A stretch of 64,000 nucleotides of DNA from Wenyingzhuangia fucanilytica (GTDB lineage Bacteria; Bacteroidota; Bacteroidia; Flavobacteriales; Flavobacteriaceae). A program made the translations under genes and the position numbers. Below the pieces are notes generated by a model. The model had not been told where the DNA came from and searched no databases. It saw only the letters and a list, made by a program, of their open reading frames with translations. The first letter of the stretch is position 1, and every line of letters begins with the position of its first letter. Location of the stretch: positions 2,960,501 through 3,024,500 of the forward strand of contig NZ_CP014224.1 in the NCBI RefSeq assembly GCF_001697185.1. The letters are read 5' to 3'. This document shows, piece by piece, positions 19,810-33,779 of this stretch.

Positions 19810-20844
19810 ATGTCTAAAAAAGATATCAGAGCCCTTAGCAAAGATCAATTAAGGGAATTTTTTGTAACAAACGGAGACAAGGCCTTTAGAGGAAACCAAG
19901 TCTACGAGTGGTTGTGGTCTAAATCTGCCCATACTTTTGATGACATGACTAACCTATCTAAACAAACTAGAGATATGTTAGATAGCAACTTTACCATTAA
20001 CCATATTGAAGTAGACAATATGCAACGTAGTAAAGATGGTACTGTTAAAAATGCTGTAAAACTACACGATGGTTTAATTGTAGAATCTGTATTAATCCCT
20101 ACCGATTCTAGAACCACCGCTTGTGTATCTAGCCAAGTAGGTTGTAGTTTAGATTGTGAATTCTGTGCTACTGCTCGTTTAAAAAGAATGAGAAATTTAA
20201 ATGCTGATGAAATTTTTGATCAAGTAGCGGCCATCAACAAAGAAAGTCTTAAAACCCACAAACACAAACTATCTAATATTGTGTATATGGGAATGGGAGA
20301 ACCTTTGATGAACTACAACAACGTACTAAAATCTATAGAAATGATTACTAGTGATGAAGGTTTGGGAATGTCTCCAAAACGTATCACTGTTTCTACTTCT
20401 GGATTACCAAAAATGATTAAAAAACTAGCTGACGATGAAGTAAAATTCAATTTAGCAGTTTCATTACACTCTGCAATTGAAGAAACAAGAAATAAAATCA
20501 TGCCTTTTTCTAAAAACTTTCCGTTAACAGACTTACGTGAATCATTAGAATATTGGTACGCAAAAACACAAAGCAGAATTACTTATGAATATGTTGTTTG
20601 GAGAGATATTAACGATAAGCAAGAAGACATTAATGCTTTGGTAAAATTCTGTTCTTACGTTCCGTGTAAAGTGAATTTAATAGAATACAATCCTATTGAT
20701 GACGGAAAATATCAACAAGCAAGTAATAAAGCTATTGATGATTATGTTTACATTTTAGAAAAAAATGGAATTGTAGTCAATGTTCGTAGATCTAGAGGAA
20801 AAGACATTGATGCTGCATGTGGACAGTTGGCGAATAAAAGCTAA
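19810..20844 (+). CDS. rlmN: 23S rRNA (adenine(2503)-C(2))-methyltransferase
   Basis: A radical SAM methyltransferase of 344 residues from the ATG at 19810 (MSKKDIRAL). The CxxxCxxC cluster motif is in CSLDCEFCATARL at about 110-122, the GMGEPLMNYNN motif at about 160-170, and the mechanistic cysteine in the RRSRGKDIDAACGQL tail. It methylates A2503 of 23S rRNA and A37 of some tRNAs. A longer frame starts at a TTG within the predicted promoter, so I reject it. Confidence 0.96.
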   Translation: MSKKDIRALSKDQLREFFVTNGDKAFRGNQVYEWLWSKSAHTFDDMTNLSKQTRDMLDSNFTINHIEVDNMQRSKDGTVKNAVKLHDGLIVESVLIPTDSRTTACVSSQVGCSLDCEFCATARLKRMRNLNADEIFDQVAAINKESLKTHKHKLSNIVYMGMGEPLMNYNNVLKSIEMITSDEGLGMSPKRITVSTSGLPKMIKKLADDEVKFNLAVSLHSAIEETRNKIMPFSKNFPLTDLRESLEYWYAKTQSRITYEYVVWRDINDKQEDINALVKFCSYVPCKVNLIEYNPIDDGKYQQASNKAIDDYVYILEKNGIVVNVRRSRGKDIDAACGQLANKS

Positions 20845-20890
20845 TTTTAAATCCTGTTAAAACTCACAAATCACTAACATTCGTTTATTT

Positions 20891-20912
20891 ACAACACTAT
20901 AAATTGTGTTGT
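20891..20912. other. inverted repeat overlapping the thi promoter
   Basis: A perfect 7-bp inverted repeat (ACAACAC / GTGTTGT) with an 8-base centre. The -33 box lies inside it. It could be an rlmN terminator or an operator. Confidence 0.35.
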
Positions 20913-20933
20913 GAAAATATTTTTATACATTCG
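20904..20933 (+). promoter_or_regulatory. predicted thiamin-operon promoter (TTG-N19-TACATTCG)
   Basis: TTG at 20904-20906 and TACATTCG at 20926-20933 with 19 bases between. Transcription would start near 20937, just before the riboswitch aptamer, which supports the call. Confidence 0.6.
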
Positions 20934-20944
20934 CATTAGATAAG

Positions 20945-21050
20945 CTTTAGGGGTGTCTTTTATAAAAAAGGCTGAGATTTACCCTTTGAACCTGAATAAG
21001 TTAAGACTTACGTAGGGAAAAGTAAGGTCGCAGACCTCTTTTGTTTTTTA
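20945..21050 (+). ncRNA. TPP riboswitch (THI box)
   Basis: The aptamer spans about 20945-21022 and shows the conserved THI-box segments in order: GGGGTGTC, GGCTGAGA, CCCTTTGAACCTGA, and ACGTAGGGA. CTTT at its 5' edge pairs with AAAG at its 3' edge to close P1. A short hairpin (AGGTC gca GACCT) with T-rich sequence follows at about 21025-21050 and may be the expression platform. The ThiS start is about 87 bases further on, so control by premature termination is more likely than by occluding the start. Thiamin pyrophosphate should repress the whole operon. Confidence 0.93.
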
Positions 21051-21136
21051 TTGTAAGAGTGCAAACATTGTACTCCACTTTATTCAGCTTCAAGCAGAGT
21101 CCTTCTGCAAAGGTTATCGCCAAAATATTTTTAATA

Positions 21137-21340
21137 ATGATAACCGTAAAAGTAAATAACCTTTCTAAAGAAATTTCAGAGAATAGTTCTGTAGAGCAAT
21201 TGTTATTACAATTATCTCAACCAGGAAACGGAATTGCTGTAGCCATCAATCAACAAATTATTTCAAAATCTAATTGGAACCAACATCAACTAAACCAAGG
21301 AGATGATGTTTTAATTATACAAGCTACACAGGGAGGATAA
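21137..21340 (+). CDS. thiS: sulfur carrier protein ThiS
   Basis: A 67-residue ubiquitin-like carrier ending in the required Gly-Gly (QATQGG), which is adenylated by ThiF and thiocarboxylated to donate sulfur for thiazole synthesis. I start it at the ATG at 21137 (MITVKVNNLSKEI); a longer frame from 21041 would add 32 residues with no ThiS similarity and would begin next to the riboswitch platform. It is the first gene of the thiamin operon. Confidence 0.95.
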   Translation: MITVKVNNLSKEISENSSVEQLLLQLSQPGNGIAVAINQQIISKSNWNQHQLNQGDDVLIIQATQGG

Positions 21341-21342
21341 AC

Positions 21343-23298
<1,956 letters not shown>

Positions 23299-23303
23299 TC
23301 TAT

Positions 23304-23384
23304 TTACAATTAGCAATGTGCAATTGACAATTTATTGTTGAGCGCACATTGTTAATTCTTAATTGTTCATTGCACATTGTAAAA
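23304..23384. repeat. word-like inverted repeat between thiC and the thiE-like gene (CAATTAGCAAT type)
   Basis: Left arm 23304-23338 begins TTTACAATTAGCAATGTG; right arm 23343-23382 has ACATTGTTAATTCTTAATTG and TGCACATTGTAAA. The arms are imperfect reverse complements. An in-frame upstream start at 23349 lies inside the element and is not a credible gene start. Confidence 0.7.
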
Positions 23385-24038
23385 ATGATAGTTTTAATCG
23401 CACCAGAAACGGACATTCCAAACGAACTTGAAATACTGCATCAGTTATTTCAAAACGGATTGGAATATTATCATTTCAGGAAACCACACAAGAATTATCA
23501 AGAGCATTGTGAGTATTTAAATCAAATTGATAAACAATATCACAACCGAATTGTAGTCCATTATTTTCATGAGTTGATAAACGAATACAATCTAAAAGGA
23601 ATTCATTTTCAGGAGCAAAAACGAAGAGACGTTTTGAGTACAGAGTACAAAGTACAAAGTACAAAGACTTTTTTGCAGAACTACGCTAAAAGCCTTAATA
23701 CTCAATACTCAGTACTCAGTACTAAGAGCATAAGCTCTTCTTTTCATGAACCAGAAGAATTACAAAACTGTACGTTTGAGTTTGACTATCATTTACTAAG
23801 TCCTGTTTTCTCTTCTATTTCAAAACAAGGTTACAATGGCCGTGGTTTTGATGTCAATCACATCCATAAAATCATTGTAGGTATGGGAGGAGTAACAACA
23901 GAAAACTTAGCCGAATTTAACAAACTAGGTTTTAAAGGAGTGGGTGTTTTAGGTGGAATTTGGAATAGTGAAAAACCAGTAGAAGATTTTGTTACAATGC
24001 AAACATTTTTCAATGTACAATTAGCAAAGAACAATTAA
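23385..24038 (+). CDS. ThiE/TenI-like thiamine phosphate synthase paralogue with in-frame repeat insertion
   Basis: About 217 residues from the ATG at 23385 (MIVLIAPETDI), a TIM-barrel of the ThiE/TenI superfamily. FRKPHKNYQEH, KGIHFQE, DYHLLSPVFSSISKQGY and GMGGVTTENL mark the barrel; the ThiE phosphate-binding end (GVGVLGGIW) is altered. The usual ThiE Q-x-R and N-D-R motifs are replaced by HFRKP and VHYFHEL, so activity may be TenI-like (aminopyrimidine isomerase) or lost. About 35 residues near 83-117 are the translation of a word-like inverted repeat (see 23631-23729), absent from the family. A full ThiE lies downstream at 25591. Confidence 0.8.
   Translation: MIVLIAPETDIPNELEILHQLFQNGLEYYHFRKPHKNYQEHCEYLNQIDKQYHNRIVVHYFHELINEYNLKGIHFQEQKRRDVLSTEYKVQSTKTFLQNYAKSLNTQYSVLSTKSISSSFHEPEELQNCTFEFDYHLLSPVFSSISKQGYNGRGFDVNHIHKIIVGMGGVTTENLAEFNKLGFKGVGVLGGIWNSEKPVEDFVTMQTFFNVQLAKNN
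23631..23729. repeat. word-like inverted repeat inside the thiE-like coding region (AGTACAAAGT type)
   Basis: Left arm 23631-23671 repeats GAGTACAGAGTACAAAGTAC words; right arm 23694-23729 repeats ATACTCAATACTCAGTACTC words in the opposite sense. The whole element stays open in the thiE-like frame and encodes Ser-Thr-rich words such as LSTEYKVQSTK and VLSTKS. Confidence 0.75.
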
Positions 24039-24050
24039 CAATGAGTAACA
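24012..24050. repeat. left arm of the repeat flanking the first four-helix-bundle gene
   Basis: TACAATTAGCA followed by ACAATTAACAATGAG words. The arm supplies the last codons and stop of the thiE-like gene (24036-24038) and the first codons of the next gene. Its 11-base start matches the reverse complement of 24426-24436. Confidence 0.65.
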
Positions 24051-24400
24051 ATATTATTCTTGACAAAACGTACAATTTTGCAATTAAAATTGTGAAACTT
24101 TCTCAATATTTAGTAAGTGAGAAAAAAGAATACGTTTTATCTAAACAAATACTACGCTCAGGAACTTCTGTAGGAGCAAATACAGAAGAAGCTATTGGAG
24201 GTTTCTCTAAAAAAGACTTTATATATAAACTAAACATAGCTTACAAAGAAGCTAGAGAAACTAAATATTGGTTGAGAATTTTAAAAGACACAGGTTATAT
24301 TGAGTCTGAAGAATTTGAGGTATTGTTTGATGAACTTGAGCAAATATTAAAAATACTATTTACAATTATCAAAAAATCAAAAGAAAATGGAGATGGATAG
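24041..24400 (+). CDS. four-helix-bundle protein of the S23 / 23S rRNA-intervening-sequence family
   Basis: A 119-residue, highly helical basic protein. ILRSGTSVGANTEEAIGG at about 47-64 is the family signature (SxxSIxANIxEG in relatives), and YKEARETKYWLRILKDTGY follows it. Relatives are encoded in intervening sequences of 23S rRNA in Leptospira and others, and the fold matches Avd of diversity-generating retroelements; the function is otherwise unknown. It has no obvious thiamin role, interrupts the thi operon, and lies between two arms of a word-like inverted repeat. A distant paralogue follows at 25211. Confidence 0.88.
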   Translation: MSNNIILDKTYNFAIKIVKLSQYLVSEKKEYVLSKQILRSGTSVGANTEEAIGGFSKKDFIYKLNIAYKEARETKYWLRILKDTGYIESEEFEVLFDELEQILKILFTIIKKSKENGDG

Positions 24401-25199
24401 AATTGATAATTACACATTGCCAACTGCTAATTGTAAATACATATTAACTATTGCCGGTCACGATCCTTCAGGAGGTGCTGGATTGACTTCAGATATTAAA
24501 ACATTTGAAGCACATGGTTTTTATGGCTTATCTGTTTGTACTGCTATTACTGTTCAGAATGATATTGATTTTAAAGAATGTATATGGACAGAACCTAAAG
24601 TGATTCTTTCGCAAATTGAAACTTTATTTGAACGTTTTAAAATTGATATCGTTAAAATAGGAATCATCCAATCTTGGCAAACATTGCTCGATATTTTATT
24701 ACAACTGAAACACTTAAATCCTGAAATAAAAATTGTTTTAGATCCAATCATCAAAGCCACTACTGGTTTTGATTTTCATACAGACGAAAATCAAGATTTG
24801 TTGAATAAAATTTGGGAACAATGTTATATCATCACCCCAAATTATAATGAAATTCAGTTACTGTACCCAGAAAAAGACATAGAAGAAACTACAGAACATA
24901 TTGCCAGCAAAACCAACATTTATTTAAAAGGTGGACACAGAAAAGACAAAAAAGGTTGGGATGAATTGTATCATAGCGGAATTGTAATGGTAAACATTCC
25001 TCCAAACGCCACTAAAGTTTCAGAAAAACACGGAAGCGGTTGTGTATTATCATCTGCCTTAGCTTGTAGTATTGGCTTAGAACAAGAGTTGGAAGATGCC
25101 TGTAAAGCTGCAAAACATTACACAGAGAGGTTTTTAAATTCTAATGATTCTTTGTTGGGAACGCATAAAAGAATGGAGAATACAGAAGTTAGTAACTAG
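24387..25199 (+). CDS. thiD: hydroxymethylpyrimidine/phosphomethylpyrimidine kinase
   Basis: A 270-residue ribokinase-family enzyme phosphorylating HMP and HMP-P. ILTIAGHDPSGGAGLTSDIK at about 19-38 is the N-terminal signature, AITVQNDIDFKE follows, and KHGSGCVLSSALACSIGL near 212-229 holds the anion hole and catalytic region. The first 18 or so residues have no counterpart in ThiD and are the translation of a repeat arm (24401-24440). The start overlaps the preceding gene by 14 bases; Met3 (24393) is an alternative. The C-terminal RMENTEVSN also comes from a repeat arm. Confidence 0.94.
   Translation: MEMDRIDNYTLPTANCKYILTIAGHDPSGGAGLTSDIKTFEAHGFYGLSVCTAITVQNDIDFKECIWTEPKVILSQIETLFERFKIDIVKIGIIQSWQTLLDILLQLKHLNPEIKIVLDPIIKATTGFDFHTDENQDLLNKIWEQCYIITPNYNEIQLLYPEKDIEETTEHIASKTNIYLKGGHRKDKKGWDELYHSGIVMVNIPPNATKVSEKHGSGCVLSSALACSIGLEQELEDACKAAKHYTERFLNSNDSLLGTHKRMENTEVSN
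24401..24440. repeat. right arm of the repeat flanking the first four-helix-bundle gene
   Basis: AATTGATAATTACACATTGC then CAACTGCTAATTGTAAATA, roughly the reverse complement of the arm at 24012-24050. It is translated as the N-terminal extension of ThiD. Confidence 0.65.
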
Positions 25200-25204
25200 A
25201 ATAA
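25169..25204. repeat. left arm of the repeat flanking the second four-helix-bundle gene (TAGAAT type)
   Basis: Words AGAATGGAGAATACAGAAGT and TAGTAACTAGAATAAA; the arm contains the thiD stop codon. It is the approximate reverse complement of the arm at 25553-25583. Confidence 0.6.
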
Positions 25205-25210
25205 ATCACT

Positions 25211-25573
25211 ATGAAAAAAAACACTTTTGAAGATTTAATCATGTGGCAAAAAGCTCATCAATTTGTGCTTTTGGTATATTCTATAACAATGTCTTTTCCA
25301 AAAGAAGAAACTTATGGATTGACTTCTCAATTTAGAAGAGCTGCTACATCAATTGCTGCAAATATAGCCGAAGGATATAAAAAGAAAGGATTAAAAGATA
25401 AAGTGAGATTCTTTAATATTTCACATGGCTCATTAGAAGAGTGTAGGTATTACATAATACTTTCAAAAGATTTGGGTTACATAAATGACACTGAAAAATT
25501 AAACAATCTGATCAATGAAACTGGGAAACTAATTAATGCCTACTCAAAGTCTGTTCTAAATTCTAACTCCTAA
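25211..25573 (+). CDS. four-helix-bundle protein of the S23 / 23S rRNA-intervening-sequence family (second copy)
   Basis: A 120-residue helical protein. FEDLIMWQKAHQFVLLVY at the start, FRRAATSIAANIAEGYKK at about 41-58 and SLEECRYYIILSKDLGY at about 77-93 match the family more closely than the copy at 24041. The two copies are clearly diverged, so this is not a recent tandem duplication. It too lies between repeat arms, and its last residues (VLNSNS) are read from the right arm. No role in thiamin synthesis is expected. Confidence 0.9.
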   Translation: MKKNTFEDLIMWQKAHQFVLLVYSITMSFPKEETYGLTSQFRRAATSIAANIAEGYKKKGLKDKVRFFNISHGSLEECRYYIILSKDLGYINDTEKLNNLINETGKLINAYSKSVLNSNS

Positions 25574-25583
25574 ATTCTAAAAC
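25553..25583. repeat. right arm of the repeat flanking the second four-helix-bundle gene
   Basis: Words TGTTCTAAATTCTAACTCC and TAAATTCTAAAAC, giving the stop codon of the four-helix-bundle gene and ending just before thiE. Confidence 0.6.
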
Positions 25584-25590
25584 AAAAACC

Positions 25591-26241
25591 ATGACCATCA
25601 ACAAATTACATTATATATCACAAGGAGCTACACCAAAAGAGCATTTAGAAAACATCCAAAAAGCTTGTGCTTCAGGTGTTGAATTGGTACAACTTCGTTT
25701 GAAAAATTTATCCGATAAAAAGATATTAAAAACAGCTTTAGAAGCTAGAGAAATCACCAATCATTTTCAGACAAGATTAATCATCAACGATCATTATAAA
25801 ATTGCCAAAGAGGTAAAAGCAGATGGAGTTCATTTGGGAAAAACAGATACTTGTCCAACCATTGCTAGAAAAGAACTGGCTACTTGGCAAATTATTGGAG
25901 GTACGGCAAACACACTTGAAGACTGTAAAAATTTGTTAAATAAAAATGTGGATTATATTGGTTTAGGACCGTTTAGATTTACCACAACCAAGGACAATTT
26001 AAGTCCTGTTTTAGGTTTAAATGGCTACTCTTTAATTTTAGAAGAATTAAAAACAGAAACCCCAATTATTGCTATTGGTGGAATTACAACCAACGATGTT
26101 GCTGACATTCTAAAAACTGGCGTTTCAGGAATTGCCATCTCAGGAGAAATTACCAAAGATTTTAACAAAATAAGAACCTTTCATCAGCTTTTACAAGTAG
26201 GAAGTTCTCATGAACAGAAATATGACATTAGTGATCTATAG
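25591..26241 (+). CDS. thiE: thiamine phosphate synthase
   Basis: A 216-residue TIM-barrel that joins HMP-PP and thiazole phosphate. The canonical motifs are here: VELVQLRLKNLSDKK (Q-x-R-x-K) at about 32-46, LIINDHYKIAKEVKADGVHLGKTD, GLGPFRFTTTKDN with the pyrophosphate-binding Thr residues, and AIGGITTNDV with ISGEI. This should be the working ThiE of the operon, in contrast to the degenerate copy at 23385. Confidence 0.95.
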   Translation: MTINKLHYISQGATPKEHLENIQKACASGVELVQLRLKNLSDKKILKTALEAREITNHFQTRLIINDHYKIAKEVKADGVHLGKTDTCPTIARKELATWQIIGGTANTLEDCKNLLNKNVDYIGLGPFRFTTTKDNLSPVLGLNGYSLILEELKTETPIIAIGGITTNDVADILKTGVSGIAISGEITKDFNKIRTFHQLLQVGSSHEQKYDISDL

Positions 26242-26248
26242 AAATACA

Positions 26249-26296
26249 AAAGCCAGAATTTTCAATTCTATATTCTAGCTCCTAAATTCTAAAAAC
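26249..26296. repeat. word-like inverted repeat between thiE and the DUF1801 gene (ATTCTA type)
   Basis: A short left arm (AGCCAGAATTTTC) and a longer right arm with TTCTATATTCTAGCTCCTAA and ATTCTAAAAACT words. Confidence 0.55.
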
Positions 26297-26304
26297 TAAA
26301 AATT

Positions 26305-26709
26305 ATGGCCAACAAAACCCAACCAACCAACGCAAGTGTTACAGACTTTATCAACCTGGTTGACAAAGAACAAAAACGAAAAGATTGTTTTGAAATCCTA
26401 AATATGATGGAAGCGCTAACAGGAGAAAAACCTGTGATGTGGGGAGATAGTATTGTGGGGTTTGGCCAATACAGATACAAAACAAAATCGGGTTGTGAAG
26501 ACAATTGGTTTACCTGTGGATTCTCGCCTAGAAAAGCAAATATATCCTTATATCTAATGGGTTGCGACATCCAAAAAAGTCAAGATTTATTAGACCAATT
26601 AGGAAAACACAAAACCGGTGTAGGCTGCTTATACATTAACAAGTTAGCAGATGTAAACACCCAAGTTTTAAAAGAAATAATTAAGAGAACAATAGAAATT
26701 AGTAGATAA
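26305..26709 (+). CDS. DUF1801 domain protein
   Basis: The 134-residue protein matches DUF1801 (YdhG-like): a helical N-terminus, LMNMMEALTGEKPVMWGDS-like block at about 35-50, SIVGFGQYRYKTKSG, and the ending HKTGVGCLYINKLADV with helix VLKEIIKRTIE. The family is small, soluble and of unknown function. It has no known thiamin role and is bracketed on both sides by word-like repeats, so it looks like another passenger in the operon. Confidence 0.85.
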   Translation: MANKTQPTNASVTDFINLVDKEQKRKDCFEILNMMEALTGEKPVMWGDSIVGFGQYRYKTKSGCEDNWFTCGFSPRKANISLYLMGCDIQKSQDLLDQLGKHKTGVGCLYINKLADVNTQVLKEIIKRTIEISR

Positions 26710-26712
26710 CGT

Positions 26713-26784
26713 ATAAGAATCTAGAAGCAAGAATTCAGGAGTTAGTACAGCTGGATTCTATATTCTAGATTCTACATTCTAAAA
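26713..26784. repeat. word-like inverted repeat between the DUF1801 gene and thiG (TAGAATCTAGAA type)
   Basis: Left arm 26713-26747 has AGAATCTAGAAGCAAGAATT and CAGGAGTTAG; right arm 26752-26784 has GGATTCTATATTCTAGATTC and TACATTCTAAAA. Arms are imperfect reverse complements around a short loop. Confidence 0.7.
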
Positions 26785-26788
26785 AAAT

Positions 26789-27556
26789 ATGGACACATTA
26801 AAAATAGCCGATAAAGAATTTACATCAAGATTGTTTACAGGAACAGGAAAATTTAGTTCTAATGATTTAATGGCAAAAGCTATTTTAGCATCAGAGAGTG
26901 AATTGGTAACCGTGGCCTTAAAACGAGTTGATATTGACAATGAGCAAGACAAAATGCTACAAAGCATTAACCAACCTCATGTAAATTTATTACCCAATAC
27001 ATCTGGAGTAAGAGATGCAAAAGAAGCTGTTTTTGCAGCGCAATTAGCAAGAGAAGCTTTGGAAACCAATTGGATTAAATTAGAAATTCACCCAGATCCT
27101 AAGTATTTATTACCTGATCCTATTGAAACGCTAAAAGCTGCCGAGGAATTGGTAAAACTAGGTTTTGTTGTGATGCCATATATTCACGCGGATCCAGTTT
27201 TATGCAAACGATTAGAAGAAGTAGGAGCACAATGCGTAATGCCTTTAGGAGCTCCTATAGGAACTAATAAAGGATTAAAAACAAGTGACTTTTTAGAAAT
27301 TATTATAGAACAAAGCAATGTTCCTGTAATTGTAGATGCTGGAATTGGAAGTCCGTCACATGCTGCTTATGCAATGGAATTAGGTGCCGATGCTGTTTTG
27401 GTAAACACTGCCATTGCGGTTTCTCAAAACCCGGTAGAAATGGCCAAAGCATTTAAAATGGCGGTAGAAGCAGGTAGAATGGCTTACAATGCAAAATTAG
27501 CGAGTATTAAAAAACATGCGGAAGCTAGTAGTCCGTTAACTAGTTTTTTGAACTAG
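26789..27556 (+). CDS. thiG: thiazole synthase
   Basis: A 255-residue TIM-barrel enzyme that builds thiazole phosphate from DXP, dehydroglycine and ThiS thiocarboxylate. [12 protein letters not shown] at the start, the Schiff-base Lys in [17 protein letters not shown] (about 99-115), [15 protein letters not shown] and [20 protein letters not shown] are family motifs. It pairs with thiH downstream, 72 bases away. Confidence 0.97.
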
Positions 27557-27626
27557 AATTTAGAACCAAGAATATAGAGACTAGGTTTTAACCAAATCCT
27601 AACTTCTATATTCTACATTCTTAAAA
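27551..27626. repeat. word-like inverted repeat between thiG and thiH (TAGAATTTAGAA type)
   Basis: Left arm 27551-27585 has AACTAGAATTTAGAACCAAG and AATATAGAGACTAGG; right arm 27597-27626 has TCCTAACTTCTATATTCTAC and ATTCTTAAAA. The left arm supplies the thiG stop codon. Confidence 0.7.
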
Positions 27627-27628
27627 AC

Positions 27629-28741
27629 ATGAACAAAACATTTCAAACCTTATTCGACACCTACAATTGGGATGAAACTTTAGCGAGTATCAACTCAAAA
27701 ACAGCACATGATGTTGAGTATGCTCTTTCTAAAACCAAACGAGATTTAGAGGATTTTAAAGCTTTGGTATCTCCTGCTGCAGCTCCCTATTTAGAACAAA
27801 TGGCTCATATGAGTAAGATGACTACAAAAAAACGTTTTGGAAACACCATTCAAATGTACGTTCCCATGTATTTATCTAACGAGTGTCAAAATATTTGTAC
27901 TTATTGCGGATTTAGCATGACTAATAAAATTCCTCGAAGGACTTTAACTGATGAAGAAATTTTAAAGGAAGTTGCTTTTTTAAAAGCCAAAGGATACGAT
28001 CATATTTTGTTGGTAACAGGTGAAGCCAATAAAACCGTTGGAGTTCCATACATTAAACATGCCATGGAATTAATTAAAGATCAGTTTTCTAACATTACCA
28101 TAGAAGTACAACCTTTAGACCAACATGAATATGAGGAATTGATTGAAGCCAATTTATATGCAGTATTAGTCTATCAAGAAACATATCATAGAGATGAGTA
28201 TAAAAAACACCATCCTAAAGGGAAAAAATCTAATTTTGATTACCGTTTAGATACCGCTGATAGATTGGGTAAAGCTGGTGTTCATAAAATTGGAATTGGT
28301 GCTTTATTTGGCTTAGAAGATTGGAGAGCAGATAGTTTTTTTACAGCTTTACATCTTAAATATTTACAAAAGACCTATTGGAAAACAAAATACTCTATTT
28401 CTTTCCCAAGATTACGTCCACACAGCGGAGGTTTAGAACCAAAAGTAGAAATGACCGATAGAGATTTGGTACAAACCATTTGTGCTTTTAGATTGTTAGA
28501 TGAAGATGTGGAACTGTCTATGAGTACCAGAGAAAGTGAGGTATTTAGAAATAACATTGTACATTTGGGTATTACCTCTTTAAGTGCAGAATCTAAAACA
28601 AACCCGGGTGGTTACACAGTAGACCCACAAACCTTAGAGCAATTTGAAATTTCTGATGAACGCTCAACAGAACTCATTGCAGAAATGTTAAAAGAAAGCG
28701 GATTAGAACCTGTATGGAAAGATTGGGAAACTTTTAATTAG
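27629..28741 (+). CDS. thiH: 2-iminoacetate synthase (tyrosine lyase)
   Basis: The 370-residue radical SAM enzyme cleaves tyrosine to dehydroglycine and p-cresol for ThiG. The cluster motif CQNICTYCGFS (CxxxCxxC) is at about 87-97, VTGEANKTVGV and the C-terminal ASAR-like STRESEVFRNNIV block follow. ThiH instead of the oxygen-dependent ThiO suggests the pathway can run without oxygen. Confidence 0.97.
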   Translation: MNKTFQTLFDTYNWDETLASINSKTAHDVEYALSKTKRDLEDFKALVSPAAAPYLEQMAHMSKMTTKKRFGNTIQMYVPMYLSNECQNICTYCGFSMTNKIPRRTLTDEEILKEVAFLKAKGYDHILLVTGEANKTVGVPYIKHAMELIKDQFSNITIEVQPLDQHEYEELIEANLYAVLVYQETYHRDEYKKHHPKGKKSNFDYRLDTADRLGKAGVHKIGIGALFGLEDWRADSFFTALHLKYLQKTYWKTKYSISFPRLRPHSGGLEPKVEMTDRDLVQTICAFRLLDEDVELSMSTRESEVFRNNIVHLGITSLSAESKTNPGGYTVDPQTLEQFEISDERSTELIAEMLKESGLEPVWKDWETFN

Positions 28742-28817
28742 TATTAAGTATTAAGTAACGAGTACTAAGAACAGTAGCTACTCAATACTTTGTACTTTGT
28801 ACTCAATACTTTGTACT
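28741..28817. repeat. word-like inverted repeat between thiH and thiF (AGTATT/AGTACT type)
   Basis: Left arm 28741-28773 has GTATTAAGTATTAAGTAACG and AGTACTAAGAAC; right arm 28777-28817 has CTACTCAATACTTTGTACTT and TGTACTCAATACTTTGTAC. The left arm includes the last base of the thiH stop, and the right arm ends just before the thiF start. Confidence 0.75.
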
Positions 28818-28818
28818 T

Positions 28819-29862
28819 GTGAAACTAAACAACAACGAAAAAACACTATACAGCCGTCATTTATTATTAAATGAAATTGGACTAGAAGGACAAGAAAAAA
28901 TAAAAGCAGCCAAAGTTTTAGTGATTGGAGCTGGAGGATTAGGCTGTCCTATTATTCAGTATTTAACCGCTGCTGGAGTAGGAACTATTGGTATTGTTGA
29001 TGGTGATACTGTTGATGTAACCAATTTACAACGTCAAATTTTGTTTACGGTTGATGATATTGGAAAATCTAAAGCTAGAGCTGTAGCAAACCGAATGAAA
29101 CAATTAAATCCGTATGTAAAATTTAATATTATTCATGAGTTTTTAAACAAAGACAATGCACTGGCTCTTTTTAATCAATACGATATAGTTGTTGATGGTT
29201 CTGACAACTTCCAAACCAGATATTTATGTAATGATGCTGCTATACTAACAAACAAACCTTTAGTCTTTGGATCTATTTTTAAGTTTGAAGGACAAGTTTC
29301 TGTTTTTAACTACAACAATGGACCAACTTACCGATGTTTATACCCTACTCCACCAAAAGCTGGCTCTGTACCATCTTGTTCAGAAATTGGAGTTTTGGGA
29401 GTTTTACCAGGAATTATAGGAAGTTACCAAGCCAATGAAGTCATTAAAATTATTTGTGGAATTGGAGAAATTTTATCTGGAAAACTATTGACGATTAACA
29501 CTCTTAATAATCAACATTTTGTTTTAGGGTTTGAGAAAAACAACAACCTAAACATTACTGAATTGATAGACTATGATTTCTTTTGTGGTGTTGAAGAATT
29601 TGAACATGAAATTGAATTTTCAGAACTTACCTCAACACATGAATTAATAGATATTAGAACAAGTTTAGAAAGAGATATTCAGAACATTGGTGGAACTCAT
29701 ATACCTGAAGAAAAGATTAGAAACAATCCTAACTTATTAAACTTAGACAAAAAAATAGTGTTGTATTGTGAAACTGGAACTAGGAGTAATCAACTCATAA
29801 AAGATTTAAATCTAAAAGTATACTCTTTAAAAGGAGGCATAAAAAAAGCATCACTTAAGTGA
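28819..29862 (+). CDS. thiF: ThiF/MoeB-type adenylyltransferase with C-terminal rhodanese domain
   Basis: The 347-residue protein has an E1-like adenylation domain (about 1-240) with ATP motif VLVIGAGGLGCPIIQYLTAAG, the R in NLQRQILF and catalytic Asp in DIVVDGSDNFQTRYL, and a rhodanese domain (about 260-347) with active loop CETGTRS. It adenylates the ThiS C-terminus and may pass on sulfur itself. The CxxC zinc pairs of classic ThiF are not evident. The start is a GTG directly after the repeat. Its last codons and stop form the left arm of the terminator. Confidence 0.9.
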   Translation: MKLNNNEKTLYSRHLLLNEIGLEGQEKIKAAKVLVIGAGGLGCPIIQYLTAAGVGTIGIVDGDTVDVTNLQRQILFTVDDIGKSKARAVANRMKQLNPYVKFNIIHEFLNKDNALALFNQYDIVVDGSDNFQTRYLCNDAAILTNKPLVFGSIFKFEGQVSVFNYNNGPTYRCLYPTPPKAGSVPSCSEIGVLGVLPGIIGSYQANEVIKIICGIGEILSGKLLTINTLNNQHFVLGFEKNNNLNITELIDYDFFCGVEEFEHEIEFSELTSTHELIDIRTSLERDIQNIGGTHIPEEKIRNNPNLLNLDKKIVLYCETGTRSNQLIKDLNLKVYSLKGGIKKASLK

Positions 29863-29872
29863 TGCTTTTTTT
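29841..29872. terminator. bidirectional terminator overlapping the end of thiF
   Basis: AAGCATCACTT pairs with AAGTGATGCTT as a perfect 22-base palindrome flanked by seven A and seven T. It includes the thiF stop (29860-29862) and reaches the stop of the convergent gene at 29871. Confidence 0.9.
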
Positions 29873-30359
29873 ATAATTCTGACAAAGGTGTAAAACCTTC
29901 TACTTTCTTTTTTTGATGTACTTTATCTTTTGGTAAAAATGTTTTTAATTGCTTTACTACCTCTTCTTTATCTTTGTTACTATAGTGATTAGCATATAAA
30001 TTTTTATTTCCTAAATCATCTACATACTCAACAAAAACAGGATAATAAATACTTGTTGTACCAAAGTTTTTAGAAAATGGTTCCGATATATTCTTCTTAA
30101 CCGAAGGGCTTCCTCCTGTTCTAACCTTAACAATATTTTGTTTACAAGCTATAGAAATATCATGATACAAAACTTTAGATTTATAATCGTCAGTTAAAAA
30201 ATACCCACTGTATTCCTCAAAAGCATCAAGTAACACTATTTTGTTAACACTCCCCCACTTTACAAGCACCTCTTGACCATCTGATGTAGTCGCAATAATA
30301 CCTGACTCATCAAATGATATATTTTTATTTTTTCTTATTCTAGCAAACAACCTTTTCAT
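29871..30359 (-). CDS. uncharacterised basic protein
   Basis: A 162-residue soluble protein from the ATG at 30359 (MKRLFARIRKNKN). It alternates beta-strands in the middle and has a lysine-rich C-terminus (DKVHQKKKVEGFTPLSEL). I recognise no domain; the first half (DGQEVLVKWGSVNKIVLLD) faintly recalls PH-like bacterial domains. An upstream ATG at 30374 overlaps a -7 promoter box and is less likely. It is a single gene convergent with thiF. Confidence 0.65.
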   Translation of the reverse strand: MKRLFARIRKNKNISFDESGIIATTSDGQEVLVKWGSVNKIVLLDAFEEYSGYFLTDDYKSKVLYHDISIACKQNIVKVRTGGSPSVKKNISEPFSKNFGTTSIYYPVFVEYVDDLGNKNLYANHYSNKDKEEVVKQLKTFLPKDKVHQKKKVEGFTPLSEL

Positions 30360-30363
30360 TATG

Positions 30364-30371
30364 CAAAGATA
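30364..30371 (-). promoter_or_regulatory. predicted -7 element TATCTTTG of the gene at 29871-30359
   Basis: An exact TAnnTTTG match on the minus strand, ending only 4 bases before the ATG at 30359. No clear -33 TTG is seen. If real, the mRNA would be leaderless or nearly so. Confidence 0.45.
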
Positions 30372-30434
30372 CACATTAAACTTCTTTTCTATACACAGTT
30401 AATACAAAGCTGTGGAAAAACACACCTATGCTAT

Positions 30435-33400
30435 TTATTTACTTTTAGCAATCACTCTAACATTCATTTCTTCTACTTTTTTAGTAGATAATGGAGAAGG
30501 AGATCCAAACAATAAATCTTCAGAACTTCCTGTTTTAGGGAAAGCCATCACCTCTCTAATAGATGCTTTTTTCTCTAATATCATCATCAATCTATCTACA
30601 CCCCACGCAATTCCTCCATGTGGTGGCGCACCATAGTGGAAAGCTTCATACATCGTTCCTACACTCTTTAACATTTCCTCTTTATTGTAACCCATATTCT
30701 TATAGGTTGCCTCTAAAATTTCTGGTTTATGAGCACGAACAGATCCTCCACCTATTTCATAACCATTTAAGATTAAATCATATTGCTGTGCAATAATAGT
30801 ACCAATTTCATCTTCTTTACCATTCATATGTTTATCTAAATCATAGATGGCTGGCATAGAGAATGGGTTATGGGTAAATGTCCAACGTCCTTCATCTGTT
30901 TTCTCAAACATAGGGAAATCAACTACCCACGCTGGTCTTAATTCTTTAGGATTGATTAATTTTAACATTGCACCTAATTCTTGACGAACTGCATCTAAAG
31001 CTTTGTTAGCTGTAGCATAATCCGCAGCTGAGAAATAAACTATATCTCCAACTTTAGCTTCTGTAACATCAATAATATTTTGAGCAATTTCTTCTCCTAA
31101 GAACTTGATAATTGGAGATTGCAAATCGTTTTCATTTACAATAATATAAGCCAATCCTCCTAAACCATGTTGCTGAGCAGTAGCAGTTAATTTTTCTATT
31201 TGCCCTTTAGACATACGTTTTCCTCCTTGCTCTTCTGCAGAAACCTTGATACATTTTACAATTCCACCTTCATCAATTGGTTTAGAGAATACCTGGAAAG
31301 TAGTTCCTTTTACAATTTCTGTAATATCTTGCATTTGCAATCCAAAACGTAAATCTGGTCTATCACAACCATACTTGTCCATAGCATCTTTGTAAGTAAT
31401 CACTTCAAAAGGATGTAAAATCCATTTGTTTCCATAGATTTTCTTTACAATAGTATTGAACATATTGGTATTTAAATCAATGATTTGCTGCATAGATGCA
31501 TAAGCCATTTCAATATCCAATTGTGTAAATTCTGGTTGACGATCTCCACGAGAATCCTCATCACGGAAACAACGAGCTATTTGGAAATATTTTTCAAAAC
31601 CACCTACCATCAACATTTGCTTAAATTGTTGAGGAGCCTGTGGCAAAGTATAAAACGCTCCTGGTTCTTTACGAGAAGGCACAATAAATTCTCTTGCTCC
31701 TTCATCTGTACCAGCAGTTAAAATAGGTGTTTCTACCTCTAAAAACTCTTGCTCATCTAACATATCACGAAGTAATTTAATTACTTTATGACGGTTGATG
31801 ACCGCTTTACGAACTTCTTGATTTCTGTGATCTAAGAATTTATATTTAAAACGAGTTGCCTCGTTAGTTCTCATCGCCTTTTTAATTTCAAAAGGTAAAG
31901 TTCTAGATAAGTTTAAAGTTTCTAATTCAGAAGCTTCTAACTCAATTTTACCTGTTTTTAAACCAGCATTATAATCATCTTCATTACGTTGTACTATTTT
32001 TCCTGTAACAGTAATAACCGATTCTGGCTTTAACTTAACCAATTCACTTAAATTAGGGAAAGACTCTCTACTTAAACGAACTTGAATGATTTCGTATGAA
32101 GAATCACGTAAATCAATAAAAATCAACTCTCCATGATCACGAACTGAATTTACCCATCCTGCTAATGAAACCGATTGATTAATTGTGTCTTCGGAAATTT
32201 GAGTAATAACATGCGTTCTGTACTCTTCTTTTATTACTAAAGGAATTTCAGGTAACGCTTCGCTAGTACTTAGTACTGAGTCCTTAGTCTTAAGTTCTTC
32301 TGTAGTTTCACTAATCTTTGCACTTTGCACTTGAGACTTTGTACTACCCGACAGGGTTTCCAAAATCATTTCACGGACTACATTTCCTGGAGCTCCTTTA
32401 CCTATTTTAGCAATAACTTTACCAACTAAAACTCCAGCTTTACCTTTGTTTCCTGCTTTAATGTCATTTGCTACAGCTTCATTTTCTTCAATAGCAGCAT
32501 TTACTGCTTCTTGAATTTGTTCTGTAGAAATAGTATTGTCTGCAAAGTATTTTTTGTAATCAAAACTAGCGTCTGCTAATAAAGATTCTATAGCTTTTTG
32601 CACCAATACATTGGTTACATCTCCATTTTTAAAAGATTTAAATATTGAAGCTAAATCATCAACATTTTTAATCTTATCATAATCTTCTGCCTTAAGATTG
32701 TTTGTTAATGTTTTTGCTACAAAAGCAACATCACCAATCGCATCAATTAAAGACATTACTGTTTTAGAACGTAAAGCATCTGCGGTAAAAAACTTAGCAT
32801 CTTGAGGTTTTACTTTTCCTTCAATCAACTTAGATTCTACATAATAAGGCAATACTTTTGGGTCTACAGTAATTCCTTCTACTACACTCTTAATAGCTAC
32901 AAAAGGCAAATCTGGTTCAGAAATATAACGATAATCAGCATCGTATTCTTTCTTACGCATTACCTTAGTTTGCTTTAAAGCTTCATCCCATAAAACCGTA
33001 GTTTGATCTGGTCTAAATTCTTTATTTTCTAAAAAGTAATTTAATTGTTTTTCTATTTCTTCTTTTAAAGCCTCTACCATAAACTTAAATGAGTTTAAGT
33101 TTTTGATTTCGGTACGAGGGTTTAACACATCTGTTCCTTTTAATCTTAACGATACAGAAACATCTGATTTAAATTGTCCTTTTTCTAAGTTCGCTTCTGA
33201 AACTCCTAAATTTTGAACAATACGTTGAACATATTGTGCATAAGTAGAAGCATCTTCTATATTTCTGATACATGGCTTGGTTACAATTTCAATTAACGGA
33301 ACTCCCGCTTTGTTAAAATCTACCAAAGAAATAGTTTTCTCGTGTACCAATTTAGCAGCATCTTCTTCTACATGCACTTGCTCAATTTGTACCGTAAACT

Positions 33401-33779
33401 GAGAACCATCATTACGATAACAAGCTACTTCTCCATCTGGAATGATTGGATTGTGAAACTGTGTAATCTGAATGTTTTTTGGGTTATCAGGATATTCGTA
33501 ATGTTTACGATCCCAAGAAGTTATTTCGTTAGAAAATGTAGAATTAATCGCTTTACCAAAATATATAGCCTTAGTAACAGCTTCTTTGTTGATGGCTGGT
33601 AACACTCCCATTTGACCTGTACATACAGGACAAATATTTACGTTTGCTTGCTCACTTTCTTCGTTTGCACAACCACAAAACAATTTTGATTGTGTGTTTA
33701 AACGTACGTGTGTTTCTAAACCAATTACTAATTCTATTCCGTTTTCTTCTATTAGAGAATTTAATCTTTCTAATTCCAT
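30435..33779 (-). CDS. gatB/aspS: fused Asp/Glu-tRNA amidotransferase subunit B and aspartyl-tRNA synthetase
   Basis: An uninterrupted 1114-residue frame. Residues 1-477 are a full GatB: IELVIGLETHVRLNTQSKLF, zinc cysteines CGC and CPVC, and the YqeY-like tail ending GNVVREMILETL. Residues about 520-1114 are a full bacterial AspRS: OB anticodon-binding domain, class II motif 2 with FRDED at 738-742, a GAD insertion domain, and motif 3 GIAWGVDRLMMIL near the end. Residues about 478-512 are a Ser/Thr/Lys linker translated from a word-like repeat. AspRS would charge tRNA-Asn with Asp and GatCAB would amidate it; the fusion tethers these steps. I recall similar bifunctional annotations in some Flavobacteriaceae but cannot verify this. 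Confidence 0.95.
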   Translation of the reverse strand: MELERLNSLIEENGIELVIGLETHVRLNTQSKLFCGCANEESEQANVNICPVCTGQMGVLPAINKEAVTKAIYFGKAINSTFSNEITSWDRKHYEYPDNPKNIQITQFHNPIIPDGEVACYRNDGSQFTVQIEQVHVEEDAAKLVHEKTISLVDFNKAGVPLIEIVTKPCIRNIEDASTYAQYVQRIVQNLGVSEANLEKGQFKSDVSVSLRLKGTDVLNPRTEIKNLNSFKFMVEALKEEIEKQLNYFLENKEFRPDQTTVLWDEALKQTKVMRKKEYDADYRYISEPDLPFVAIKSVVEGITVDPKVLPYYVESKLIEGKVKPQDAKFFTADALRSKTVMSLIDAIGDVAFVAKTLTNNLKAEDYDKIKNVDDLASIFKSFKNGDVTNVLVQKAIESLLADASFDYKKYFADNTISTEQIQEAVNAAIEENEAVANDIKAGNKGKAGVLVGKVIAKIGKGAPGNVVREMILETLSGSTKSQVQSAKISETTEELKTKDSVLSTSEALPEIPLVIKEEYRTHVITQISEDTINQSVSLAGWVNSVRDHGELIFIDLRDSSYEIIQVRLSRESFPNLSELVKLKPESVITVTGKIVQRNEDDYNAGLKTGKIELEASELETLNLSRTLPFEIKKAMRTNEATRFKYKFLDHRNQEVRKAVINRHKVIKLLRDMLDEQEFLEVETPILTAGTDEGAREFIVPSRKEPGAFYTLPQAPQQFKQMLMVGGFEKYFQIARCFRDEDSRGDRQPEFTQLDIEMAYASMQQIIDLNTNMFNTIVKKIYGNKWILHPFEVITYKDAMDKYGCDRPDLRFGLQMQDITEIVKGTTFQVFSKPIDEGGIVKCIKVSAEEQGGKRMSKGQIEKLTATAQQHGLGGLAYIIVNENDLQSPIIKFLGEEIAQNIIDVTEAKVGDIVYFSAADYATANKALDAVRQELGAMLKLINPKELRPAWVVDFPMFEKTDEGRWTFTHNPFSMPAIYDLDKHMNGKEDEIGTIIAQQYDLILNGYEIGGGSVRAHKPEILEATYKNMGYNKEEMLKSVGTMYEAFHYGAPPHGGIAWGVDRLMMILEKKASIREVMAFPKTGSSEDLLFGSPSPLSTKKVEEMNVRVIAKSK
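32258..32350. repeat. word-like inverted repeat forming the GatB-AspRS linker (AGTACT type)
   Basis: On the plus strand, one arm (32261-32295) has GCTAGTACTTAGTACTGAG and TCCTTAGTCTTAAG words and the other (32311-32347) has CTTTGCACTTTGCACTTGAG and ACTTTGTACTAC words. Both belong to the same word family as the thiH-thiF element. It is open in the gatB/aspS frame. Confidence 0.75.

Follow-up and report, generated by a model that had tools for sequence, protein, structure and literature searches.

Why do two genes of the S23 family, four-helix-bundle genes that also occur inside the intervening sequences (IVSs) of 23S rRNA, lie between the genes of a thi (vitamin B1) operon, and what are the repeats on either side of them? 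The operon is part of a 64,000-nucleotide (nt) stretch of the Wenyingzhuangia fucanilytica genome (NZ_CP014224.1, positions 2,960,501 to 3,024,500 of the forward strand), hereafter the window, in which position 1 is the first letter. A preliminary description, made from the letters of the window, had placed each gene between the arms of an inverted repeat. We find a general arrangement, of which the window is a local case: an S23 gene enclosed by arrays of a degenerate 7-nt word in inverted orientation. We think it probable that each of the two window genes represents a copy of a widespread element of selfish type, a relative of the 23S rRNA IVS that resides in operons and consists of an S23 open reading frame (ORF) between inverted 7-nt-word arrays.

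Two S23 elements in a thi operon

The genes and their arms are as follows.

24041-24400, plus strand: S23/IVP four-helix-bundle gene 1, 119 amino acids (PF05635, E 3.2e-29; TIGR02436, E 3.7e-33)
25211-25573, plus strand: S23/IVP four-helix-bundle gene 2, 120 amino acids (PF05635, E 9.9e-38)
24011-24045, plus strand: left heptad arm of the first element (CAATGTA, CAATTAG, CAAAGAA, CAATTAA, CAATGAG)
24401-24440, plus strand: right heptad arm of the first element; thiD is translated through it
25170-25206, plus strand: left heptad arm of the second element (AGAATGG, AGAATAC, AGAAGTT, AGTAACT, AGAATAA)
25555-25582, plus strand: right heptad arm of the second element (TCTAAAT, TCTAACT, CCTAAAT, TCTAAAA)

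Both genes are what the preliminary description took them for. Their PF05635 scores (101.7 bits for gene 1, 129.1 for gene 2; curated cut-off 33.8) and TIGR02436 scores (114 and 123 bits; cut-off 24) place them in the family, and gene 2 also matches the protein of PDB entry 2gsc (phmmer, E 1e-16). Gene 1 occupies the junction between thiE', a thiE-like ORF, and thiD, and gene 2 the junction between thiD and thiE, with words of type CAATNNN round the first and AGAATNN round the second. The last bases of the thiE-like ORF and the first of gene 1 are both part of the left arm of the first element. The thiD start codon (ATG, 24387) is upstream of the right arm, and the first ~17 codons of thiD (24387-24442) are element sequence; in contrast, thiD of one congener (G063) starts directly after thiE'.

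Inverted arms are thus present, and their unit is the heptad, but the pairing implied by the preliminary description does not exceed chance at these two loci taken alone. The arms are short and imperfect, with a best local pairing score of 17 at 24041-24400 (mean 13.3, maximum 21 for 200 shuffled flanks) and of 13 at 25211-25573 (mean 13.1, maximum 22 of 200), and the predicted folds of both elements pair the arms only partly. Because these scores are within the shuffled range, a population of S23 loci is needed to judge the claim. A scan of positions 20800-30400 found no rRNA, and both S23 genes lie between thi genes; by this location we file the elements as a variant of the IVS kind, not as rRNA IVSs.

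Heptad arms at S23 loci across phyla

At E 1e-6 the family is present in at least 45 of 60 Flavobacteriaceae genomes. From this family we took 95 loci (the best-scoring among the matches listed, plus those of the W. fucanilytica genome; several matches with inner stops were skipped). A global set of 80 loci from all phyla, 74 of which were used (6 at contig ends were dropped), and a cyanobacterial set (15 of 30 plasmid records found) were added, with 30 ParE and 28 RibD loci (2 of 30 RibD loci were clipped) as controls.

The autocorrelation of S23 flanks is maximal at lags 7, 14 and 21 in all three sets, while no such peaks appear in ParE or RibD flanks. Strong lag-7 stretches occur in 51/190 Flavobacteriaceae, 48/148 global and 19/30 cyanobacterial flanks, compared with 1/60 ParE and 0/56 RibD flanks. 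With one threshold throughout, a heptad array and/or inverted arms are found at 154 of the 184 S23 loci (Flavobacteriaceae, 76/95; global, 64/74; cyanobacterial plasmids, 14/15), against 1/30 for ParE and 2/28 for RibD. The preliminary description had expected S23 flanks to be complementary more often than those of other genes, and for these two control families the expectation is borne out. In the Flavobacteriaceae set, arms are more complementary to their own partners (19.8) than to arms of other loci (11.4; P 2e-44), and a second pairing test gave 20.95 versus 10.3 (P 4e-32). Direct repeats between the arms were rejected as the main pattern; only 13/95 loci exceed the 99th percentile, making this a minor pattern.

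The same arrangement is found at S23 loci of Proteobacteria, Planctomycetota, Clostridia and Cyanobacteria, and one locus of an archaeal metagenome-assembled genome (L230) has an upstream array. Host operons are unrelated (thi, his, hemE, accBC, cas and ribonucleotide reductase; the hemE, hisH, hisA, accB and accC neighbours were named by reading protein ends), and an Rfam scan of 20 hand-chosen loci of the 80 in the global set found no rRNA around the S23 genes. These data bear on the idea that flavobacterial operons carry such hairpins simply as intercistronic stabilisers or terminators, which flank S23 by chance. Their location in thi operon spacers would suit it, but it is refuted as a full account by the near-zero lag-7 periodicity round control genes of the same genomes, and the recurrence in four other groups and upstream of the archaeal gene leaves it hardly credible. 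On cyanobacterial plasmids, S23 genes were also seen in CRISPR operons, twice at cas6/cas4 and once at cas10/cmr3 (L236, L247, L249).

The arrays obey rules of strand and spelling. The arms are rich in G on the gene-inward strand, whichever the side: upstream, 78 of 82 arrays have more G than C, and downstream, 74 of 87 have more C than G on the coding strand. Words are seldom shared between loci (119 loci have 104 different ones). Once brought into phase, they fit GKNARNN, i.e., G-(T/G)-N-A-(G/A)-N-N, on the gene-inward strand, with C at 9% and an information content of 2.12 bits (1.86±0.05, maximum 1.99, in 100 column-permuted controls). The method used for array copy number has a floor of five units, and the numbers are therefore uninformative on a match to a five-subunit ring.

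S23 genes are co-oriented with both neighbours at 144/179 loci and opposed to both at 8/179 (neighbours being long stop-to-stop frames rather than curated genes; five global loci with shifted coordinates were excluded). A direction-blind insert would yield equal counts, so transcription through the element appears to matter, for its spread or its survival. This symmetry is a better control for orientation than RibD, of which 8/28 genes are co-oriented on both sides and which, with a few genomic contexts repeated, is a weak control.

Among close proteins, gene and word are linked. For S23 pairs of ≥70% identity with no detected shared neighbour, word similarity is 0.70 versus 0.495 in permutations (n = 11 independent pairs, P 0.0005), and for pairs of 65-70% identity at such sites it is 0.60 versus 0.48 (n = 17, P 0.0005); below 65% it is barely over expectation (0.515 vs. 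0.482, P 0.04; 0.510 vs. 0.479, P 0.02). Across all pairs within the Flavobacteriaceae the correlation is significant (Mantel r 0.167, P 0.0002). Similar words beside close proteins at unrelated sites suggest that a gene and its arms are transferred or rebuilt together as a unit. The W. fucanilytica genome itself has six PF05635 genes, with words that read by eye as TAGTTGG, CGAACAA-like, AGAATNN, AAAGTTA, CAATTAG and CTATTGA. Window gene 2 is 80% identical to an S23 protein of a Trichormus variabilis plasmid, where the words read TCAGAAG, and a genome of another genus (G002) has an S23 92% identical to a window copy, with at least one neighbouring gene in common.

Presence, absence and arms without a gene

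Seven genomes of the genus were compared, and the thi operon was read in six. The first S23 gene is present in W. fucanilytica and G060 and absent from G061, G062, G063 and G064; in G063 a bare stop/ATG marks the thiE'/thiD site. Gene 2 is found in W. fucanilytica, G060, G063 and G064 and missing from G061, where the junction is bare, and from G062, where a lone right-hand array is left. The empty sites that the preliminary description proposed to look for in the thi operons of relatives therefore exist. No target-site duplication is evident by eye at the filled and empty thi junctions. At the thiE'/thiD junction of G061, G064 and G062 (L258, L259, L262), a different interspersed repeat, TTCGAGTGATTTTGAGGAACG..., stands at the site of the S23 gene of W. 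fucanilytica.

The hisH-hisA junction holds an AGTAC-armed S23 gene in four congeners, including G061, G063 and G064. In G062 a gene-less AGTAC hairpin at this junction has the same right edge as the S23 element of those three genomes, as expected of a deletion derivative, and W. fucanilytica and G060 have other words and no S23 gene. The hemE junction has an S23 gene in six species, with four different words, and both arms always carry the same word; arm pairing is 19.4 for own partners versus 12.4 for cross-species mispairings, i.e., the two arms change in concert at this locus.

TRAP offers a comparison for the S23 ring, and S23 might likewise be a host regulator whose ring binds heptads in leader or intercistronic RNA and tunes expression, with gene-less hairpins as its targets. 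A pentameric ring, arrays of regular units, co-orientation with the operon and many same-word sites per genome would fit such a role. Presence and absence at the same junction in congeners, fast switching of the word at one locus and the unrelated host operons do not; in addition, 15 of 60 Flavobacteriaceae genomes have no match at E 1e-6 among the matches listed. We regard such a regulator as improbable.

Arrays also occur in the window without an S23 gene. The operon reads thiS, thiC, thiE', thiD, thiE, a DUF1801 gene, thiG, thiH and thiF (names that come only partly from family searches), and nearly all of its spacers are packed with short words repeated at a period of 7 bases. AGTACNN words occur within thiE' and between thiH and thiF. 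The riboswitch and the gene-less arrays are listed here.

20939-21035: thiamine pyrophosphate (TPP) riboswitch of the thi operon
21340-21380: gene-less spacer with repeat words as at S23 loci
23299-23385, plus strand: gene-less CAATNNN hairpin in the thiC/thiE' spacer (predicted fold, -25.4 kcal/mol)
23636-23735, plus strand: gene-less AGTACNN hairpin, in-frame inside the thiE-like ORF
26241-26304, plus strand: gene-less spacer of AGAATNN type, thiE/DUF1801 (weak predicted fold, -7.2 kcal/mol)
26709-26788, plus strand: gene-less AGAATNN hairpin in the DUF1801/thiG spacer
27556-27628, plus strand: gene-less AGAATNN hairpin in the thiG/thiH spacer, also in G061 and G063
28741-28820, plus strand: gene-less AGTACNN hairpin in the thiH/thiF spacer, also in G061

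Spacers with the same words and no gene had been noted in the preliminary description, which likened S23 elements and empty hairpins to an autonomous/non-autonomous mobile pair. Half of this comparison stands: the hisH-hisA hairpin of G062 looks like a deletion derivative, but the hairpins that lack a gene do not derive from one fixed element by copying, as their loops differ and that in thiE' is resident. Compared with five congeners, the AGTAC hairpin in thiE' is found in W. fucanilytica only. Its arms add 17 + 25 nt (42 in total, six heptads, with the frame kept) on either side of a stretch present in the congeners as well, so the loop is host coding sequence around which arms were added. 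The thiE' arms argue against a copied non-autonomous element and for growth in situ, perhaps with one arm templating the other. The thiE' ORF itself (23349-24038) is a divergent thiE/tenI-like frame with a weak TMP-TENI match, and a full thiE is also present (25591-26241).

Seventeen further AGTAC sites in the W. fucanilytica genome comprise nine with a plus array and then a minus array, seven with a single array and one complex site. A miniature inverted-repeat transposable element, i.e., a non-autonomous element, was considered for these and rejected: there is no conserved full-length sequence, the loops of the 17 sites differ, and the thiE' loop is resident. Matches to three AGTAY heptads (overlaps counted) number 48 in W. 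fucanilytica and 15-47 in six congeners, and the reversed pattern has none in the same seven genomes. A search for three AGAATNN heptads gave 4 matches in the 7 genomes, making this type far rarer than AGTAC. Despite the many AGTAC arrays, 0/6 of the S23 genes of W. fucanilytica have AGTAC arms.

In 20-kb samples, lag-7 arrays number 14 in 980 kb of S23-carrying genomes and 1 in 843 kb of S23-free genomes (P 0.0013); none of the sampled regions holding these 15 arrays contains an S23 gene. Comparison lags in this enlarged sample gave 3 versus 5 (lag 6) and 6 versus 1 for each of lags 8 and 9 (P 0.09). The first, smaller sample had given 7 in 580 kb versus 1 in 443 kb for lag 7, 4 versus 0 for lag 8 and 6 versus 1 for lag 9.

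A purely mutational origin of the arms would make S23 a bystander: polymerase slippage would favour 7-nt units, and fold-back copying would give inverted pairs at any permissive spacer. The idea of a 7-nt polymerase contact is cited in the text consulted of PMC4679880 and PMC4692102, and the arms round resident sequence in thiE', the unrelated loops and the concerted change of arms at hemE are consistent with it. We nevertheless consider it unlikely, for arms are found round S23 and not round ParE or RibD, their strand polarity is fixed, their grammar crosses phyla, the word tracks S23 identity at unrelated sites, and heptads are scarcer in S23-free genomes.

Known relatives and a proposed mechanism

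The closest described system is the 23S rRNA IVS of Coxiella, a stem-loop with a sense S23p ORF in its loop, in which tandem heptamers (GACAGAT), variable in number between strains, lie just upstream of the ORF and RNase III cuts at the first repeat (PMC4990558, in the sections consulted). The likeness to rRNA IVSs drawn in the preliminary description was thus apt. As in the IVSs of Coxiella and Leptospira, a sense S23 ORF is enclosed by inverted terminal sequences, here for the population of loci, with the window loci alone within chance. Unlike rRNA IVSs, the operon elements lie between protein genes, have heptad arrays for arms and a word per locus, and come with many gene-less relatives and several S23 genes per genome. 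S23p is a toroidal pentamer (Lin 2006, as cited in the consulted part of PMC4990558), and PDB entries 2gsc and 2rld have five chains each. The Avd proteins of diversity-generating retroelements (bAvd) are a related four-helix-bundle family that gene 2 matches weakly, at 36.8 bits against a cut-off of 80 (NF033474) and 34.7 against 40 (PF22296), and therefore outside the family; gene 1 has no listed match.

Heptad arrays are known apart from S23. The 2007 study of the over-abundance of 7-nt repeats is reportedly by Mrazek. Such over-abundance in bacterial genomes was reported in that year according to PMC4692102, whose consulted text also describes heptameric simple sequence repeats of Xanthomonas (GGGAATC) and Nostoc (GGGGATT), with 186 GGGAATC arrays, including 70 convergent pairs, in X. 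campestris; TAACTGA heptad repeats are described in the part consulted of PMC4679880. Like the S23 arms, all these are intergenic 7-nt arrays, in Xanthomonas often in convergent pairs. Unlike here, they are interpreted in those texts as quadruplex or regulator sites (PMC4692102, PMC4679880), and the terms 'S23' and 'four helix' are absent from the main texts of both papers. In the consulted text of PMC4476775, complementary 7-nt repeat classes form a stem in P6b of the Nostoc trnL intron, and the word class was replaced several times; unlike S23 elements, these heptads are inside a group I intron with no S23 gene. The consulted part of PMC4990558 places heptamers next to S23p for one rRNA IVS only, and in the literature searched, with thin coverage of subscription papers and bioRxiv, we found no statement of a general link between the S23 family and heptad repeats. 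The accB-accC S23 gene of Xanthomonas vasicola has GGGAATC words upstream (the side that was read), and its genome has 91 tandem GGGAATC matches (GGGAATCGGGAATC; control, 0).

For the operon-dwelling S23 element we infer mobility, and propose that it functions in the manner of a 23S rRNA IVS transferred to mRNA. The read-through transcript of the host operon would supply S23 mRNA. Pairing of the upstream arm, rich in G, with the C-rich downstream one would form a stem that has the S23 ORF as its loop. Such a stem may be what lets the host bear the insert, probably by serving RNase III as a substrate, by analogy with rRNA. Recognition of the element's own heptad word, in RNA or single-stranded DNA, is probably the task of the pentameric S23 ring, and would keep gene and word together in evolution and in spread. 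The arms would be renewed jointly, by 7-nt slippage and by copying of one arm from the other (fold-back), and loss of the S23 gene, or growth of arms round resident sequence, would leave gene-less hairpins. More tentatively, and with slightly more doubt than confidence, we suggest that S23 rings may be the agents behind prokaryotic heptameric repeats, each reading a word of GKNARNN type (as RNA or single-stranded DNA) and maintaining or writing arrays at its own gene and, in trans, round resident sequences. The rRNA IVSs, operon S23 elements and gene-less hairpins would then form one element class. The arrangement itself links the S23 four-helix ring, a family without a known function, to two other puzzles, the origin and spread of rRNA IVSs and the bacterial excess of seven-base repeats, which is unexplained. 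Each S23 protein would predict the word it binds, and each word an S23 partner, present now or in a congener.

Several observations weigh against the S23 element as proposed here. At the thresholds used, 30/184 S23 loci have neither array nor inverted arms, and lag-8 stretches occur in 4/190 Flavobacteriaceae, 12/148 global and 2/30 cyanobacterial S23 flanks. Over all pairs the S23-word correlation is weak (Mantel r 0.079, P 0.018), and outside the Flavobacteriaceae it is not significant (r 0.054, P 0.16). The word at one and the same locus switches between species. Loops of gene-less hairpins are unrelated (17 AGTAC sites, by inspection) or, in thiE', resident sequence, a poor fit to simple transposition. 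Six of the 14 lag-7 arrays of S23-carrying genomes come from one genome (G023). Six orthologous sets other than hemE lack a clear contrast between own and mispaired arms (pooled duplex test, P 0.21), mostly because their words are shared or, in one set, their arrays are direct. The latter set is a W. fucanilytica S23 locus (L002, whose S23 copy has an inner stop) with three congeneric counterparts (L318, L319, L320), in which arrays of CGAACAA type are direct rather than inverted. A Rhodanobacter genome with a GGGATTC-armed S23 gene has no GGGAATC tandem, and the view published in the consulted text of PMC4990558 is that S23p of the Coxiella IVS is probably not expressed.

Two further features of the window involve the same words. 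The DUF1801 gene (26305-26709) is flanked by two AGAATNN word spacers (within 26241-26788) and has no match in the thi operon stretches of five congeners; it is possibly cargo held by the same kind of arms as the S23 genes. Further downstream, an AGTACNN array (32264-32298) is inside a single frame of 1114 amino acids (30435-33779, minus strand) that reads as GatB and then aspartyl-tRNA synthetase (names taken from the translation), and the words appear to fuse the two genes in-frame.

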